From a bacterium (lineage in GTDB: Bacteria; Chloroflexota; Dormibacteria; Aeolococcales; Bog-877), in the NCBI GenBank assembly GCA_021827985.1, contig JAKATL010000001.1:182376-246375 (forward strand): DNA of 64,000 nucleotides, in the 5' to 3' direction. Under the pieces are notes generated by a model. The model was not told the origin of the DNA. It did no database searches and saw only the letters and a program-made list of their open reading frames with translations. Of the stretch, positions 26,492-33,586 are shown piece after piece. Position numbers and translations under genes: made by a program. Positions within the stretch are counted from its first letter, which is position 1, and each line of letters opens with the position of its first letter.

Positions 26492-29038
26492 TCAGGCTTC
26501 CTCCGGGAGCTTTTCCAGGATGTTACGCAACTCCCGAAGGGCGGCGGTGTGCTCACCCTCTGGCAAGGTGCCCTGACCGAGCTCGGGCCTCCCACCGCCG
26601 GCACCTCCGAGCGCCGAGCAAACCCTCTTGGCCAGCTCACCGGCGGCCAGCCCCCGGCCGGTCAGCTGGGGCCCCAGCAGAATCAGCAGAGTCCCGCCGG
26701 CCAGGACCACCGCGCTACGACTGGTAGCCCGCTCCGCCAGCCGCTCGCCCAGCCGACGCATCTCGGCGCGCTCCATCGGCAGCGGTGAGTCGTGCGCCGG
26801 CAACTCCCCCCCGGGGAAGGGCAGGGAGACATACTCGCCCCCGCGGCCCTGGGAGGCATCCCGCAGCGCCCGCTCCAGCCCCCTCGCGCGGTCCCTCAGG
26901 GTCGCCACCCGGCCGGGAACCTCGGCGGGCGGGCTGCCCAGGGCGAGGGCGGTCTGCTGTAGCAGCTCCCGCTGGGCCTCCCACCACCGCTCGGCCGCGG
27001 GTCCAGCCCGGAGTTCGAGGCGACGCAGGCCCTGCCCCACGCTTCTCTCCCCGGTGAGCACCACCGCGCCCAGCTGACCGCTGGCCGCGACGTGGGTGCC
27101 GCCGCACAGCTCCCGGGAGAATCCCAGGAAGCTGACCACCCGGACCGGCTCCCGGTAGGTCTCGCCCTCGAGAGCGATGGCCCCGCTGCTCCTGGCATCC
27201 TCCAGGCTGAGCAGCTCCACCCGCCGGGGCAGGTCCCGCCGGACAGCGTCGTTGACCCGCCGCTCCACCCCCAACACCTCCTCCGGGGTGAGTGGCCGGG
27301 ACCAGCTGAAGTCGAAGGTTGCGTGGTCGGGGGTCACCAGCGACCCCCGCTGGGCCACCTCGGGACCGAGCACCGACCTCAAGGCGGCGTTGACCAGGTG
27401 GGTGGCGGAGTGGTGCGCGGCACAGCCCAGGCGGTGGTCCGGGTCAACCTCAGCCCGGACCGACAGCCCGGGCTGCAGCCGCCCGGAGGTGACCAGGCAG
27501 CCGACCAGCTGAGACCCCTGCCCTCCGGGTTGGGTGTCCTCAACCTCCGCGGCACCCCCCGGCCAGGTCAGCCGGCCGCGGTCGCCTACCTGACCTCCGC
27601 CCTCAGGGTAGAAGGGGCTACGATCCAGGACCACCGCTCCCCTCTCCCCCTTGTCCAGCCCCTCCACTGGGCGTCCCCCGGAGAGCACCAGCTCCACCCG
27701 AGCCTCGACCTCCAACTGCTCGTAGCCCACGAACTCGCTGGCTGGAAGAGCCGGCAGGTCGGTTCCCACCGGCCCCCGCCCCCGCCGGCGCTGCTCCTCC
27801 AGGAGCCGCTCGAAGCCGACGGTGTCGACCTCCAGCCCGCGCGAAGCCGCCAGGTCTCGGGTCAACTCGATGGGGAAGCCGAAAGTGTCGTGGAGGCGGA
27901 AGGCATCGGCCGCCGTGATCCCCGACCCCTCGGCCGCCAAGCGCAGGAACAGCCCCAGACCCCGATCGAGCACCTCGGCGAACCTGGCCTCCTCCTCACG
28001 GAGCACCGACTCGATCTCCCTCACCTGCCCCAGGAGCTGAGGCATGGGGCCCGCCAGGATCTGGGCCACCACCCGAGCGGCCGGTGCCAGCCCGCCGGTC
28101 AACTCCAGGGCTTGGGCGCTCACCAGGGCCCGGCGGACCAGGCGGCGGAGGACGTACCCTCGGCCCTCGTTCGAGGGCCGCACTCCGTCTGAGATCAGGG
28201 CGCAGGCTCCCCTGGCGTGGTCGGCGAGGATCCAAAGGTGGCGGCGCCCCGTGCGCTCCCCCAGCTGGGCCAGGGCCGCGGATCGGCTACGGAAGTCCTG
28301 CACCAGGGGTGAGAAGAGGTCGGTGTCGAAGATCGACGACTTCCCCTGCACCACCCGGGTGATGCGCTCAAGCCCCATCCCGGTGTCCACCCCGGGTCGG
28401 GGCAGGGGAACGGCGGAGCCGTCGGGCAGGCGCTCGGAGTCCATGAACACGAGGTTCCAGATCTCCAGGTAGCGATCACCCCGTCCCGGGGTTTCCGACG
28501 CAGCGCTGGCGGATTCCGGCCCGAGGTCGTAGTAGATCTCGCTGTCAACCCCGAAGGGGCCGGTCGGCCCCGCCTGCCAGTAATTGTCCTCCAGGGCGAC
28601 GATCCGTTCCCGGCCCACCCCGGCCACCTCCCGCCACAGGCGCTCCGACAGCTCGTCCGAGGGGTGGATGCTGAAGTGCAGCCGATCCGGGTCGAGTCCC
28701 ATCTCCGCGGTCAGGAACTGGTAGGCGTAGCGGATCGCCTCCTCCTTGAAGTAGGACCCGAAGCTGAAGTTACCGAGCATCTCGAAGAAGGTGTCGTGCC
28801 GGGTGCTGTTGCCCACCTCCTCGATGTCCACCGCCCGGAAGGCTCGTTGACAGGAGGTGAGCCGGGGCGCCGGCGGTTGCTTTCGCCCCAGGAAGTAAGG
28901 CTTGAAGGGCACCATGCCGGCACCCACCAGGAGCAGGCTGGGATCATCCTCCGGCACCAGCGAGGCGCTGGGCACCAGGAGGTGGTCCCGAGCCTGGAAG
29001 TACTCTAAAAAATGTGTGCGGATCTGCGAACTGAGCAA
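26492..29038 (-). CDS. alaS: Alanyl-tRNA synthetase
   Basis: A class II synthetase of about 848 residues. Motifs: RTHFLEYFQARDHLLVPS (core start), TSCQRAFRAVDIEEVGNSTRH, MLGNFSFGSYFK (motif 2), an editing domain with HHSATHLVNAAL, and ELCGGTHVAASGQLG (Zn-binding, C plus H). A short C-Ala domain ends with GGGRPELGQG. The start TTG 29038 has a GGGG-containing ribosome site and a TAGAAT box 30 bases upstream; an earlier TTG at 29092 overlaps the sigma-factor stop but would precede that promoter. Confidence 0.93.
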   Translation of the reverse strand: MLSSQIRTHFLEYFQARDHLLVPSASLVPEDDPSLLLVGAGMVPFKPYFLGRKQPPAPRLTSCQRAFRAVDIEEVGNSTRHDTFFEMLGNFSFGSYFKEEAIRYAYQFLTAEMGLDPDRLHFSIHPSDELSERLWREVAGVGRERIVALEDNYWQAGPTGPFGVDSEIYYDLGPESASAASETPGRGDRYLEIWNLVFMDSERLPDGSAVPLPRPGVDTGMGLERITRVVQGKSSIFDTDLFSPLVQDFRSRSAALAQLGERTGRRHLWILADHARGACALISDGVRPSNEGRGYVLRRLVRRALVSAQALELTGGLAPAARVVAQILAGPMPQLLGQVREIESVLREEEARFAEVLDRGLGLFLRLAAEGSGITAADAFRLHDTFGFPIELTRDLAASRGLEVDTVGFERLLEEQRRRGRGPVGTDLPALPASEFVGYEQLEVEARVELVLSGGRPVEGLDKGERGAVVLDRSPFYPEGGGQVGDRGRLTWPGGAAEVEDTQPGGQGSQLVGCLVTSGRLQPGLSVRAEVDPDHRLGCAAHHSATHLVNAALRSVLGPEVAQRGSLVTPDHATFDFSWSRPLTPEEVLGVERRVNDAVRRDLPRRVELLSLEDARSSGAIALEGETYREPVRVVSFLGFSRELCGGTHVAASGQLGAVVLTGERSVGQGLRRLELRAGPAAERWWEAQRELLQQTALALGSPPAEVPGRVATLRDRARGLERALRDASQGRGGEYVSLPFPGGELPAHDSPLPMERAEMRRLGERLAERATSRSAVVLAGGTLLILLGPQLTGRGLAAGELAKRVCSALGGAGGGRPELGQGTLPEGEHTAALRELRNILEKLPEEA

Positions 29039-29067
29039 GTGGTCCCCATCCCTGGCAGGTCGGCTGG

Positions 29068-29073
29068 ATTCTA
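29068..29073 (-). promoter_or_regulatory. -10 box for alaS
   Basis: TAGAAT on the minus strand (5 of 6 consensus bases) lies 29 bases upstream of the alaS TTG at 29038, leaving room for a short leader that holds the ribosome site. No clear -35. Confidence 0.33.
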
Positions 29074-29088
29074 ACAGCCGCCCGGGGC

Positions 29089-29865
29089 TCAACCCTCGAG
29101 GGGCATCTCCCGCCGCAGGCGGTCGAGGGCCGCCCGCTGCAGCCGGCTGACGTGCATCTGGCTGATCCCCAGGCGGCGGGCCACCTCGGTCTGCGGCAGC
29201 TGGTCGACGAAGCGGAGGATCATGATCTCCTGCTCGCGAGGGGTCAGGTGGCGCAGTGCGGTCCCCAGAACGTTCTGGAGCTCTATCCGGTCCAGGTTCT
29301 GGTCCTCGACGCCCACCCTGTCTCCGACCTCCTGGTCCTCGTCCGCCCCCTGGGCGGGCGCGTCCAGGGAGACGGCACGGTGGGCCGGTCCCGCCTCCAG
29401 CGCCTGGAGCACCTCGTCCGGCTCCAGCTCCAGCTCCTTGGCGATCTCCGCCACCGTGGGGCTGCGGCCCAGCCGCTGGGCCATCTCCTGCTGCACCCGG
29501 ACCACCTTGGCGTAGGTCTCCTGAAGACGACGAGGAACCCTGACCGCCCAGCTCTTGTCGCGGAAGTAGCGCTTGATCTCCCCCAAGATGGTGGGGGTGG
29601 CGAAGGTGGTGAACTCCAACCCGAGACTGGGGTCGAACCGCTCAATCGCCGAGATCAGCCCCAGGAAGCCCACCTGTTCCAGGTCCTCCAGCGGCTCACC
29701 GCGGCCGGCGAAGCGGCGGGCCAGGGAGCGCACCAGCGCCTGGTACTGGTCCACCAGCCGCTCCCGGACCTCAGGAGTGTGGTGGAGTCGGTAATCCTCG
29801 AAGAGGCGGTGCTGCAGGTCGCGGTCGTAGCGGGTGGGGCTGCTGCGGAACCCCGCCTCGGTCAC
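29089..29865 (-). CDS. SigB/SigF-type RNA polymerase sigma factor
   Basis: A 258-residue group 3 sigma-70 factor. Region 2 has EDLEQVGFLGLISAIERFDP and FTTFATPTILGEIKRYFRD; region 3 has RRLQETYAKV; region 4 has LTPREQEIMILRF with the helix-turn-helix QTEVARRLGISQMHVSRLQR. It overlaps an RsbW-like gene by ATGA, the arrangement seen in rsbW-sigB and spoIIAB-sigF. Probably a stress or development sigma factor under partner-switch control, but see the altered partner. Confidence 0.9.
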   Translation of the reverse strand: MTEAGFRSSPTRYDRDLQHRLFEDYRLHHTPEVRERLVDQYQALVRSLARRFAGRGEPLEDLEQVGFLGLISAIERFDPSLGLEFTTFATPTILGEIKRYFRDKSWAVRVPRRLQETYAKVVRVQQEMAQRLGRSPTVAEIAKELELEPDEVLQALEAGPAHRAVSLDAPAQGADEDQEVGDRVGVEDQNLDRIELQNVLGTALRHLTPREQEIMILRFVDQLPQTEVARRLGISQMHVSRLQRAALDRLRREMPLEG

Positions 29866-30290
29866 CGCAGTCGATACTTGGCCAGACGGACGTGCAGAAG
29901 CCCGCTCCCCACCGCCTGGAAGTCGACATCGTCGGCAAAGCAGCGGAGCATGTGGATGGCGAGATCCAAGGCCTCCCGCTGGTCCCGGGTCCCGGAGGCG
30001 GCCGGGACCGGCTCACCGCGGCTGTGCAGGAGGCGCACATCCACGCGCAGGGCATCCTCCTGGACGTCGAAGGCGATGCGCACCCGGGCGTCCCTGAGGC
30101 CCGTGGCCAGCGCCACACCGATGGTGCGCTCGCAGGCCTCGGCGATGGCGATGTTGAGTTCCTCCAGCGCCTCCACCCCCAGGCCGGCCACGCTGGCCAT
30201 GCCTGCCGCCGCCCGCTTGGCCACCACGATGTACTGGGGGTCGGCGGGAATCCGCAGCTCGCTCTGAGAGGCTGGCGCTGTACTCATCAC
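29862..30290 (-). CDS. RsbW-like anti-sigma protein lacking ATP-binding motifs
   Basis: A 142-residue protein with the size, fold pattern and sigma-factor linkage of RsbW/SpoIIAB. Its N-box helix reads EELNIAIAEACERTIG: the Asn expected after SEACT is Arg55. The DxGxG (G1) and GxG (G2) loops are replaced by RLLHSRGEPVP and REALDLAIHML. It therefore probably cannot bind ATP or phosphorylate an anti-anti-sigma, although it may still hold the sigma factor. Start GTG 30290 or ATG 30287. TGTACT lies 6 bases before the latter. Confidence 0.72.
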   Translation of the reverse strand: MMSTAPASQSELRIPADPQYIVVAKRAAAGMASVAGLGVEALEELNIAIAEACERTIGVALATGLRDARVRIAFDVQEDALRVDVRLLHSRGEPVPAASGTRDQREALDLAIHMLRCFADDVDFQAVGSGLLHVRLAKYRLR

Positions 30291-30527
30291 CTCAGTACAT
30301 CCCCCAACGAGGAGCTCCCCAAACCCAAGGGCCCAGGGTAACCCGCCGGCCTGGTTCCGATCCCTACACCACCAGGTGGGTGCGCCGCACGCGGCTTTCC
30401 ACTTCCCCTCAAGGAGGCTTGTGGGCCACCAGCTCTGTTGGCGCTCCCGGGAACTTCATCACTAGGGTCGGGCGCTGGCGTTCGGCGGGGCCCCGGGCCG
30501 CCTCCAAGGTAGCAGATGACCGGAGGC

Positions 30528-32303
30528 TCAGCTGTGGGCCGGAGGCGCCGCCAGCCTCAGCCCCACCTCGGCAAGCTGCGCCTCCGCCACCCGGGTGGGG
30601 GCGCCCGTCATGGGGTCCGCGCCCGTCTGGGTCTTGGGGAAGGCGATCACCTCGCGGATGGAGCTCTCCCCCAGCCCCACCATCACCATCCGGTCGATGC
30701 CCGCGGCGAATCCCCCATGAGGCGGAGGCCCGTAGCGAAACGCGTCGATGAGAAATCCGAACTTGGTCGCCACCTCGGCCTCGGTAAGGCCCAGCACCGA
30801 GAAGATCTCCGCCTGCTGGCGAGGATCGGTGATGCGCAGGGATCCCGATCCCAGCTCCACCCCATTGCAGACGATGTCATAGGCCCGCGAGCGCACCTTC
30901 TCGGGCTCGGTGCGCAGCATCCCCCAGTCATCCGGGTGCGGCTGGGTGAAGGGGTGGTGCATGGGGGAAACCTCACCGGTCCTGGGATCGCGCTCAAAGA
31001 GGGGAAACTCGGTCACCCACAGGAAGTCGAACCGCCCTTCGGGGATCCATCCCAGCCGCCGGGCCGCGTGCAGCCGCACCTGCCCCAGGGACACCAGCGC
31101 CGTCTGCTGCGGGCCGGCCGTGAACAGCAGCAGATCCCCGGTGGTCAACCCCAACTCCCGCCGGAGGCGCTCCGCTTCCGCCTCGGTGAGGAACTTGGAG
31201 ATACCGCCCTCCAGACCGGAGTCGCGCTGCCAGCAGTAGGCCAGCCCCTGAGCGCCGTAGGTACGCGCCACCTCCAGGAAGGCGCCCTCCAGCTCCCCCC
31301 GGGTCAGTTGCGTGCCGCCGGGGACTCGCAGGGCCACCACCGCTCCACCATGGTCCAGAGCCCTGCGGAACACTTGGAACTCGCTGGCGGTGAACACCTG
31401 GGAGACGTCGAGGAGCTCCTGGCCGAAGCGGGTGTCTGGCTTGTCAGAGCCGTACCTGCGCATCGCCTCGGCGAAGGGGAGGCGGGGCCAGGGGGTGGGG
31501 GGCGTCACCTCGAAGGCCGCCTCCCAAGCCGCCGACACCATCTCCTCCAGCACTGAGTAGACCTCCTCCTCCTCCACGAAGGACATCTCCAGGTCGAGCT
31601 GGGTGAACTCGAACTGGCGGTCAGCCCGCAGATCCTCGTCCCGCCAGCACCGGGCGATCTGCAGGTAGCGGTCGAAGCCGCCCACCATGGAGAGCTGCTT
31701 GTAGAGTTGGGGCGACTGCGGCAGCGCCCAGACATGGCCCGGCCACAGCCGGCTGGGTATGAGGAAGTCGCGAGCCCCCTCGGGGGTGCTGGGGACCATG
31801 GTGGGGGTCTCGATCTCCACGAACCCGAGGCGGTCCCCGGCGTCGCGCAGCGCCTTGATGAAGCGGTGGCGGGCACGCAGGTTGCGCTGCATCCTCGGCC
31901 GGCGGAGGTCCAGGTAGCGGTACTGGAGGCGAACGCGCTCGTCCGCCTCCGCCTCGTCGCCAACCCCAAGGGGCATCGCCTGGGCCTGGGCCAGAACCTC
32001 GCAGAGATCCACCCTCACCTCGACCGCACCGGTGGGGAGGTTGGGGTTCTCGCTCCCCTCGGGCCGCCGAGTCACCACCCCCTCGACCCGGATCACCCAC
32101 TCCAGGCGGCAGCGCTCGGCAACTTGCTTGGCCTCGGGGGCGATCTCGGGGTTGAAGGTGAGCTGGACCACCCCGGTGTGGTCCCGCAGGTCGATGAAGG
32201 TCAGCCCGCCATGGTCGCGGCGGTGGTTCACCCAACCCGCCAGAATCACCCGGCGGCCCTCGTCGGCGGCCGAGGGGACTCCGCACATCGTTCGACCCTT
32301 CAA
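30528..32303 (-). CDS. aspS: Aspartyl-tRNA synthetase
   Basis: A 591-residue bacterial-type class IIb synthetase with an N-terminal OB anticodon-binding domain (VILAGWVNHRRDHGGLTFID), motif 2 (YLQIARCWRDEDLRADRQ), the GAD insertion and motif 3 (GFAAGIDRMVMVGLG). It charges tRNA-Asp. It overlaps hisS by 4 bases; the hisS-aspS order is common. There is a gap of 237 bases before the anti-sigma-like gene with no recognisable feature. Confidence 0.95.
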   Translation of the reverse strand: MKGRTMCGVPSAADEGRRVILAGWVNHRRDHGGLTFIDLRDHTGVVQLTFNPEIAPEAKQVAERCRLEWVIRVEGVVTRRPEGSENPNLPTGAVEVRVDLCEVLAQAQAMPLGVGDEAEADERVRLQYRYLDLRRPRMQRNLRARHRFIKALRDAGDRLGFVEIETPTMVPSTPEGARDFLIPSRLWPGHVWALPQSPQLYKQLSMVGGFDRYLQIARCWRDEDLRADRQFEFTQLDLEMSFVEEEEVYSVLEEMVSAAWEAAFEVTPPTPWPRLPFAEAMRRYGSDKPDTRFGQELLDVSQVFTASEFQVFRRALDHGGAVVALRVPGGTQLTRGELEGAFLEVARTYGAQGLAYCWQRDSGLEGGISKFLTEAEAERLRRELGLTTGDLLLFTAGPQQTALVSLGQVRLHAARRLGWIPEGRFDFLWVTEFPLFERDPRTGEVSPMHHPFTQPHPDDWGMLRTEPEKVRSRAYDIVCNGVELGSGSLRITDPRQQAEIFSVLGLTEAEVATKFGFLIDAFRYGPPPHGGFAAGIDRMVMVGLGESSIREVIAFPKTQTGADPMTGAPTRVAEAQLAEVGLRLAAPPAHS

Positions 32304-33586
32304 CTCGCCCCCTCCTCGGCCGACTCACCACTGATCAGCAGGTCCCGGATGCGCCCCTCAACCCCTTCCAGTGGAAGGCGCTCCTGGGTGTGACCGGCCA
32401 TCCTCCGGACGGTCACCGTCCGCTCCCGAAGCTCAGATTCTCCCAGGATCAGTGCCATCCGCACCCCCGAGCGCTCGGCGAAGGAGAGCTTGGCCCGCAG
32501 CCCGCGGGCCCCGGCGTCCATCAACACCGACAGCCCGGCCCCGCGAAGGCGGTCAGCGAGGGCCACGGCCGCCCTGCGGTCCGCAGGAGGCGCGCTGAGC
32601 ACCGCCACCTCGGGCCCACCCGGCTCCGGTGCCGGAGCCGAGATCATGGCCACCCTCTCCAGCCCGGCGGCGAAGCCCACCCCCGGGAGCGGTGGATACC
32701 CAAGCAGCTCTGACAGCCCGTCGTAGCGGCCCCCGCCGAAGAGCGCGTTCTGGGCCCCGGCCAGCTCCTGGTGCCAGACCTCGAAGGCGGTCCGCGCGTA
32801 GTAGTCGAGGCCACGGACCAGGCGGTGGTTCACCGTGAAGGGGATTCCCAACGCCGAGAGGGCCGCCTGGACCTGCTCGAACGCCGCCCGGCACTCGGAG
32901 CAAAGGTAGTCGATGGTCCTCGGGGCCCGGTCCAGGAGACCCTCTCCCGCCAGCTCCTTGCTGTCCAGGACCCGCAGCGGGTTGCGGCGGAGGCGCTCCC
33001 GGTCCAGCTCCGGGAGAGCCGCCATCTGCGGCTCGAAGAACGCCAGCAGCGCCGCCCGGTAGGCGGGGCGGCACTCGCGGTCTCCCAGCGAATTCAGCTG
33101 CAGGGTGGTTCCGCTGATCCCCAGCCGCTCCAGCCACCTCCAGGCCAGCCCGATGACCTCGGCGTCTACCTCCGGCTCGGAGTCCCCAAGGGCCTCGACG
33201 CCGAACTGATGGAACTGCCGATAGCGTCCCTTGCCGGGCCGGTCGTAGCGGAACATCGGGCCGGAGTAGGAGATCCGTACCGGAAGCGGCTCCTGGCGCA
33301 GCGGGGACTCCCAAAAGGCCCGGACCACGGGAGCCGTGCCCTCCGGGCGGAGGGTCAGGGATCGCCCCCCCCGGTCGGGGAAGGTGTACATCTCGCGGGT
33401 GACGACATCAGTGGCCTCCCCGACACCCCGGACGAACAGGTCGGTGGACTCAAAGATGGGCGTCTCGATCTGTCGGTAACCGTGGGCCGCGGCCACCTGC
33501 AGCCCCTCCGCCAGCACCCGATTCAGGCGCGCCAAGGACTCGGGCAGCAGGTCCTCCGTGCCCCGTGGTCGTGAGATTCCAGCCAC
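32300..33586 (-). CDS. hisS: Histidyl-tRNA synthetase
   Basis: A 428-residue class II synthetase: IETPIFESTDLFVRGVGE, RPEGTAPVVRAF (motif 2 area), FRYDRPGKGRYRQFHQFGVE, the histidine A box RGLDYYARTAFEVW, and GVGFAAGLERVAM (motif 3), then a C-terminal anticodon-binding domain. GTG start. It lies 35 bases after rel. Confidence 0.95.
   Translation of the reverse strand: MAGISRPRGTEDLLPESLARLNRVLAEGLQVAAAHGYRQIETPIFESTDLFVRGVGEATDVVTREMYTFPDRGGRSLTLRPEGTAPVVRAFWESPLRQEPLPVRISYSGPMFRYDRPGKGRYRQFHQFGVEALGDSEPEVDAEVIGLAWRWLERLGISGTTLQLNSLGDRECRPAYRAALLAFFEPQMAALPELDRERLRRNPLRVLDSKELAGEGLLDRAPRTIDYLCSECRAAFEQVQAALSALGIPFTVNHRLVRGLDYYARTAFEVWHQELAGAQNALFGGGRYDGLSELLGYPPLPGVGFAAGLERVAMISAPAPEPGGPEVAVLSAPPADRRAAVALADRLRGAGLSVLMDAGARGLRAKLSFAERSGVRMALILGESELRERTVTVRRMAGHTQERLPLEGVEGRIRDLLISGESAEEGAS

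Follow-up and report, generated by a model that had tools for sequence, protein, structure and literature searches.

A kinase-less RsbW-type protein encoded with its sigma factor across Dormibacteria is a probable phosphorylation-independent anti-sigma factor

RsbW, SpoIIAB and UsfX are encoded directly before their sigma factors and inhibit them, the Bacillus gene order being anti-sigma, then sigma. In most accounts, partner switching operates by phosphorylation. In the part of a study on Mycobacterium smegmatis that we draw upon (PMC7693655), phosphorylation of RsfB by partially purified RsbW1 was not seen in vitro, although RsbW1 is described as a bona fide anti-SigF factor; a different protein, RsbW2, serves as the kinase. 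The same part of that study presents RsbW3, encoded beside rsfA and not beside sigF, as kinase-negative and as an antagonist of an anti-sigma factor, not as an anti-sigma factor, so that the absence of a kinase alone does not imply an anti-sigma function. Our literature search found no paper joining RsbW, anti-sigma, kinase activity and pseudokinase, and none on the present group among the best matches (subscription papers were outside its scope). Dormibacteria and sigma factors were joined by nothing save a list of Candidatus names (PMC12451612, title only).

We analysed an RsbW-type gene and its neighbours in a stretch of 64,000 nucleotides (the window) from an uncultured lineage of Dormibacteria, whose genome assembly (G000) is 2.83 Mb in size and 93.1% complete. 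The features are listed below.

29862..30290, minus strand: HATPase_c_2 (RsbW-type, kinase-less) gene, 142 aa, GTG start, probable anti-sigma factor
29089..29865, minus strand: SigB/SigF/SigG-family sigma factor gene, 258 aa, TIGR02980 match
30126..30128, minus strand: codon of Arg55 (CGC), at the N-box Asn position
30138..30140, minus strand: codon of Glu51, at the catalytic Glu position, kept in the window protein; Gln in 69 of 81 aligned rows
30299..30324, minus strand: predicted SigB/SigF-type promoter GTTT-N16-GGGGAT, 8 bases ahead of the GTG start
26492..29092, minus strand: alaS, directly downstream of the sigma gene (named from sequence; start as called by the ORF lister)
30528..32303, minus strand: aspS, directly upstream of the anti-sigma-like gene (named from sequence)
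32300..33586, minus strand: hisS, upstream of aspS (named from sequence)
G000:C47:255257-255760: hsp20 gene, about 9 kb beyond the end of the window (L189, L190)

The anti-sigma-like gene (29862-30290) and the sigma gene (29089-29865), both on the minus strand, overlap by 4 bases. The sigma product matches TIGR02980 (SigBFG) at 280.5 bits against a cut-off of 234.35, with Pfam regions 2, 3 and 4 all over cut-off, which bears out the original prediction that the RsbW-like gene overlaps a SigB/SigF-type sigma gene in the usual order. Along the minus strand, hisS and aspS are followed by the anti-sigma-like gene, the sigma gene and alaS. This arrangement is common to many loci, with same-strand matches to alaS in 67, aspS in 63 and hisS in 65 of the 80 examined. 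The alaS frame, as called by the ORF lister, overlaps the sigma stop codon at 29089-29092, and the stress operon may be read through into alaS.

We examined what kind of protein the anti-sigma-like gene encodes. Pfam assigned it to HATPase_c_2 (PF13581) at 41.2 bits against a cut-off of 27.4, and the RsbW/SpoIIAB equivalog profiles stayed under their cut-offs (NF003144, 46.5 of 145 bits; TIGR01924, 42.4 of 155.05; TIGR01925, 14.7 of 135, a weak match with an E value of 0.022). The closest PDB sequence was B. subtilis RsbW, at an E value of 2.4e-8, with UsfX at 0.16. A structure predicted from 21 sequences had a pLDDT of 81.7, falling to about 56 at residues 91-100, the expected place of the ATP lid, which in the alignment is a variable linker. 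Among solved structures the model was most similar to RsbW (6m37, Z 18.3), UsfX (8ih8, Z 16.0) and SpoIIAB (1l0o, Z 15.8; Foldseek was also run), and it superposed on chain 6m37_C with an rmsd of 1.4 over 113 residues. The next different kind of protein, LvrC of Leptospira, followed at Z 11.9 in a ranking limited to the families in that list. The window protein is therefore predicted to have the RsbW/SpoIIAB fold.

The original prediction held that the N-box Asn is replaced by Arg55 and that the G1 and G2 glycine loops are lost. A search of 301 genomes of the phylum gave matches in 61, of which 23 lie outside the class (E 1.5e-6 to 7.6e-4); six outside-class matches were translated and five served as controls, L181 being excluded for its near identity with L178. 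In a MAFFT alignment with these five RsbW-type proteins, the window protein has Arg55 (codon CGC at 30126-30128) at the N-box Asn while keeping Glu51, Leu at the G1 Asp, His and Arg at the G1 glycines, and Asp and Ala at the G2 glycines. Both statements are thus confirmed, and realignment by MAFFT or by profile against PDB sequences did not recover the N-box or the glycine loops.

The same comparison was extended to 81 rows, made up of the window protein and 80 loci from a pattern search that accepted either Glu or Gln at the catalytic position and placed no constraint on the Asn and G1 columns. The first alignment omits L024-L026, L034 and L047, and set A1 omits L034 (stop codons in frame). 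The rows are related by descent, so that counts over loci are not independent. N-box Glu and Asn never occur together (0 of 81), the G1 Asp, which in this fold reads adenine, is likewise found in none of the 81, and the first and second glycines are retained in 1 and 16 rows at G1 and again in 1 and 16 at G2. All five controls have the Glu, the Asn, the G1 Asp and both G2 glycines, but the G1 glycines are present in just four and three of them (L180 has a poor G1 after its Asp), which makes these glycines the weakest marker of loss. The Glu/Asn columns read Gln/Asn in 34 rows, Gln/Ser in 31, Glu/His in 11, Gln/Arg in 3, Gln/His in 1 and Glu/Arg in 1, the window row, so that Glu is retained singly in 12 and Asn in 34. 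Since the Glu/Arg pair is private to the window row and Arg55 is not typical, what marks the group is not the Arg but the absence of both the Glu/Asn pair and the G1 Asp. A regular expression did find a DxGxG string in L106 and L107; by eye, it lies ahead of a beta strand and off the G1 column. These results demonstrate that the N-box pair is broken in several ways across Dormibacteria.

Whether the gene is maintained was judged from its distribution and substitution pattern. A group profile found it in 106 of 110 class genomes, including all 37 of high quality (completeness of 90% or more, contamination of 5% or less), and the four genomes without a match are 63 to 85% complete. All 18 family genomes have it, some matches being cut by contig ends. 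The match comes in two pieces in G080 (on separate contigs) and in G357 (on one contig with a gap), perhaps through assembly breaks or a longer linker. Against eight relatives, the dN/dS ratio was 0.06-0.26 for this gene and 0.009 to 0.21 for the sigma gene (Nei-Gojobori, own script; three of the 11 relatives, L103-L105, were dropped since the anchor peptide was not located). The anti-sigma-like gene is under purifying selection. In the tree, the 81 Dormibacteria rows form one side of a long branch with support of 93/88, and the canonical rows fall outside it (the root is not fixed); two STAS-linked HATPases stood on very long branches, and their position was not used. A single loss of the kinase site before the spread of the class is the simplest reading of this tree, with moderate support. 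One genome holds a second kinase-less copy (G053:C22, 21453-21881 and 18601-19038), about 2.4 kb from an hsp20 gene with promoter (L210).

We then considered the sigma partner and the surface that would meet it. The neighbouring sigma factor is the sole SigBFG match over cut-off in the window's genome. In 17 of the 18 family genomes exactly one SigBFG protein scores over cut-off, each time this neighbour; in the eighteenth, the match begins at a contig end and scores below cut-off. In 78 of 80 loci, at most 200 bases separate the anti-sigma-like gene from the sigma gene downstream; the two exceptions, L106 and L107, have it about 1 kb away and not adjoining. By assumed numbering, we place Asp148 of SigmaF in the SPEDVV stretch of the aligned SigmaF chain, and we take it to pair with SpoIIAB Arg20, the sigma-contacting residue to which Lys25 of the window protein presumably corresponds. 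Sigma residues 150 and 151 align with this SPEDVV stretch and are Asp or Glu in 78 and 72, respectively, of 79 loci, one of the 80 not covering these columns. Asp148 is named at the anti-sigma meeting point in the part of PMC7340262 used here, which also has RsbW Arg23, the position matching Lys25, in contact with RsbV. Lys25-Arg26 is invariant in the 21 sequences of set A1, found by whole-protein comparison, and in all 81 of the larger set, where it was partly selected, one search pattern containing VAKR; three of the five controls have Arg-Ala at these columns. The alignments are consistent with a retained sigma-binding face in the window protein.

The search for RsbV-like genes that had been proposed with the original prediction gave none: no STAS protein was found in the window's genome (93.1% complete) with PF13466, PF01740 or TIGR00377, and no STAS gene lies in the anti-sigma/sigma locus. 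In the family, TIGR00377 matched in 4 of 18 genomes, in one of them over cut-off, and 14 had no match; in a class sample, STAS_2 matched in 57 of 81 genomes, 46 of them over cut-off. In the genus mates G012 (L173, G012:C102) and G016 (L172, G016:C40), PP2C and STAS genes share a contig, and in G016 a canonical HATPase gene separates them; the STAS profile matches of these genomes have no equivalent in the window's genome. The single PP2C (SpoIIE) match there scores 25.8 bits against a cut-off of 25 and sits on another contig (L183). HATPase_c_2 gave 12 matches in that genome, and the 11 besides the window protein lie in frames of 409 to 850 aa, which from length only are taken as histidine kinases; no second stand-alone HATPase_c_2 protein was seen. 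The group profile found only the window copy in L001-L008 and none in L052-L091, a result of little weight, as it also missed the canonical HATPases of G016 (within L073, and later recognised by eye in L172) and of L176. The kinase-less protein is thus present throughout this family (18 of 18), whereas a STAS protein can be detected in only some of its genomes.

To see how the operon might be transcribed, we scrutinized its upstream sequence. A GTTT-N16-GGGGAT site at 30299-30324 on the minus strand lies directly before the anti-sigma-like gene, its −10 element being GGGGAT and not GGGTAT; the message is predicted to be nearly leaderless. According to the parts of two studies consulted, SigB-type promoters read GTTTAA-N12-14-GGGA/TAA/T, the GGG and the fifth-place A being nearly constant (the −10 boxes of the Streptomyces promoters listed include GGGCAT, GGGCAA and GGGGAC; PMC8346170), and mycobacterial SigF promoters read GGWWT-N16-17-GGGTAY (PMC7693655). 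Loci were labelled f1 to f4 by a C-terminal motif, which is not a taxonomy. Within 110 nt upstream, a relaxed form (GTTT-N15..18-GGGNA) was present in 15 of 15 f1-type and 22 of 24 f2-type loci against 44 of 14510 control windows; for the strict GGGTA(T/C) form the counts were 1 of 15, 22 of 24 and 15 of 14510, respectively. Since 14 of these 15 strict control hits are real f4-type sites 650-900 nt upstream, the true strict background is below the figure quoted. L133 was left out of the count for want of an anchor; L115 was mis-anchored, its upstream sequence holding the motif, and L122 missed by one mismatch.

The f4-type loci have a strict site within 1500 nt in 18 of 26, about 720 nt upstream. 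In the seven of them that were inspected (L128, L131, L136, L141, L147, L157 and L171) the site ends 7 nt before a small membrane-type gene, a gap that suggests leaderless messages. By eye, this small gene resembles DUF948, and what looks like a YtxH gene comes next in some relatives. By Pfam, DUF948 between aspS and the anti-sigma-like gene in other families gave one match, below cut-off (22.3 of 37.2 bits, L120), and none in the two L140 proteins. In f3-type loci the relaxed promoter was found in 0 of 15 within 110 nt and in 1 of 15 within 1500. The boxes are conserved and the bases that separate them are not; in three of the four types, the sigma factor probably transcribes its own operon.

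Five sites in the window's genome match the relaxed form GTTT-N16-GGGNAT, one of them that of the anti-sigma/sigma operon. The only one with GGGTAT stands 71 nt before the hsp20 gene (Pfam HSP20, 83.2 bits). Upstream of hsp20 in 29 loci (the best 30 fetched of 47 matching genomes among 61 searched, the window's own included, less L218, which has no upstream sequence), the strict form was seen in 22 loci and the relaxed one in 25, the corresponding figures for 1368 control windows being 1 and 5; four loci had neither. Several genomes whose sigma operon is without the strict site have it at hsp20 (e.g. L209, L211-L217). Genome-wide, no excess of the motif was found in the window's genome (strict, 2 versus 9 in the reversed control; relaxed, 5 versus 2), so that the case for the operon and hsp20 sites rests on their conservation, and these counts do not support a large regulon. 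With promoters before its own operon and before hsp20, the sigma factor is probably active, autoregulated and stress-related.

On the basis of these results, we think that the window protein is rather probably a dedicated phosphorylation-independent anti-sigma factor, which would have kept the RsbW/SpoIIAB fold and the sigma-binding face of its ancestor, lost ATP binding and kinase activity, and be co-transcribed with its sigma factor. It is taken as an anti-sigma factor because it is encoded directly before its sigma gene, by analogy with RsbW1. We infer that it binds and inhibits the sigma factor, that it does not bind ATP, and that the predicted promoter is in use. That promoter being of the sigma factor's own type, inhibitor and sigma would be made together as the sigma factor switches on; the sigma factor would be held by stoichiometric binding without ATP and released by something other than phosphorylation and dephosphorylation of an RsbV. 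A classic phosphorylation switch is unlikely as the trigger of this response. The original prediction had reasoned that partner switching needs ATP binding and phosphorylation, which is too strict for sigma control as such, RsbW1 being an anti-SigF factor without phosphorylating RsfB (PMC7693655, in part). Its suggestion of a different sigma control fares better, at least for a pure binding antagonist, which fits best; the activator that it also offered is left as a minor rival.

Against a dedicated anti-sigma factor of this kind stand several other readings. Kinase-less partner switching as in mycobacteria, with an unphosphorylated or redox-controlled STAS antagonist (divergent, or missing from the assembly) removing the protein from sigma, has in our judgement a smallish but real chance. 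The STAS_2 matches in 57 of 81 class genomes are a counterpoint to the anti-sigma reading and favour this one, as does TIGR00377, which matched 4 genomes of the family's 18, one of them over cut-off. Many relatives may use a STAS antagonist, and RsbV could be missing from the 93.1%-complete assembly of the window's genome. Also in its favour, M. smegmatis RsbW1 works with RsfA and RsfB (PMC7693655, in part), and Lys25 together with an acid at position 44 keeps part of the RsbV-facing surface, judged by RsbW contacts in the part of PMC7340262 used. However, three profiles found no STAS protein in the window's genome, the locus has none, and TIGR00377 matched nothing in 14 family genomes, although all 18 have the anti-sigma-like gene. 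That the protein is instead a sigma chaperone, an activator or an antagonist of another regulator, its sigma factor no longer being inhibited, appears improbable. Sharing an operon and a sigma-type promoter and being kept together with the sigma gene would suit such roles, but the homologues named above as encoded directly before sigma genes inhibit their products. RsbW1 does so, and RsbW3 adjoins rsfA, not sigF (PMC7693655, in part). Nor was another stand-alone HATPase_c_2 protein seen in the window's genome that could be the target.

Two further readings concern the altered site itself. A non-canonical site might still bind a nucleotide or another ligand and make the protein a sensor, in line with the kept fold and with the single retention of Glu51 (12 of 81) or Asn (34 of 81); we consider this quite improbable, as the adenine-reading G1 Asp is gone in 81 of 81 and the lid region is a variable linker of low confidence in the model. 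The original prediction had also allowed that the protein is on its way to loss. For such decay speak the lost catalytic motifs and the split matches in two draft genomes (G080 and G357); it is nonetheless hardly credible in view of the dN/dS of 0.06-0.26, retention in 106 of 110 class genomes and a conserved promoter shared with the sigma gene, and we reject it. Beyond the dedicated anti-sigma factor that we prefer, we propose only tentatively a two-gene stress response at the level of the family, in which an autoregulated SigB-type sigma factor and a kinase-derived inhibitor might do without ATP, anti-anti-sigma factor or phosphatase, the signal possibly being read by the inhibitor itself (through a reused pocket, heat or redox) or by the ratio of inhibitor to sigma.

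That a class keeps inhibitor and sigma factor and drops the kinase site suggests that the binding role outlives the enzyme role. The system is small, with two genes, one promoter and one likely target, hsp20, and is suited to testing release without phosphorylation in a laboratory host. It also provides a predicted stress-sigma promoter for uncultured Dormibacteria, on which we found no earlier paper.

Among known systems, mycobacterial UsfX/RsbW1 is alike in that an RsbW-type gene is co-transcribed with a SigB/SigF-type sigma gene. The PDB chains 8ih8 and 8jzt, which we take to be M. tuberculosis UsfX, have Arg at the N-box Asn (stretch EVCTR), as has the window protein. This shared Arg looks convergent, because in most of the class the Glu was lost, with or without the Asn. 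By sequence the window protein is closer to Bacillus RsbW (E 2.4e-8) than to UsfX (0.16). The mycobacterial SigF promoter, GGWWT-N16-17-GGGTAY, resembles the Dormibacteria site, whereas M. smegmatis differs in having RsbW2 as a separate kinase (PMC7693655, in part). Mycobacteria also keep the STAS antagonists RsfA and RsfB, unlike the window's genome, in which no STAS protein was found; with the kinase-less anti-SigF kind, the window protein thus shares the gene placed before sigma and the lost N-box, but not a STAS antagonist. B. subtilis RsbW/SigB is alike in fold (Z 18.3) and in promoter type (consensus GTTT..GGGTAT; PMC8346170, in part), but RsbW is a serine kinase that phosphorylates RsbV, whereas the window protein lacks the motifs and neither its locus nor its genome yielded an rsbV gene. 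SpoIIAB/SigmaF is alike in fold (Z 15.8 to 1l0o) and in the acidic, putatively anti-sigma-facing stretch of the sigma factor; SpoIIAB works, however, through ATP/ADP states, and the window protein is only a weak TIGR01925 match. A kinase-less RsbW relative that inhibits its sigma factor is therefore known, and what sets the present case apart from mycobacteria is that no counterpart of RsfA or RsfB was found in the window's genome.
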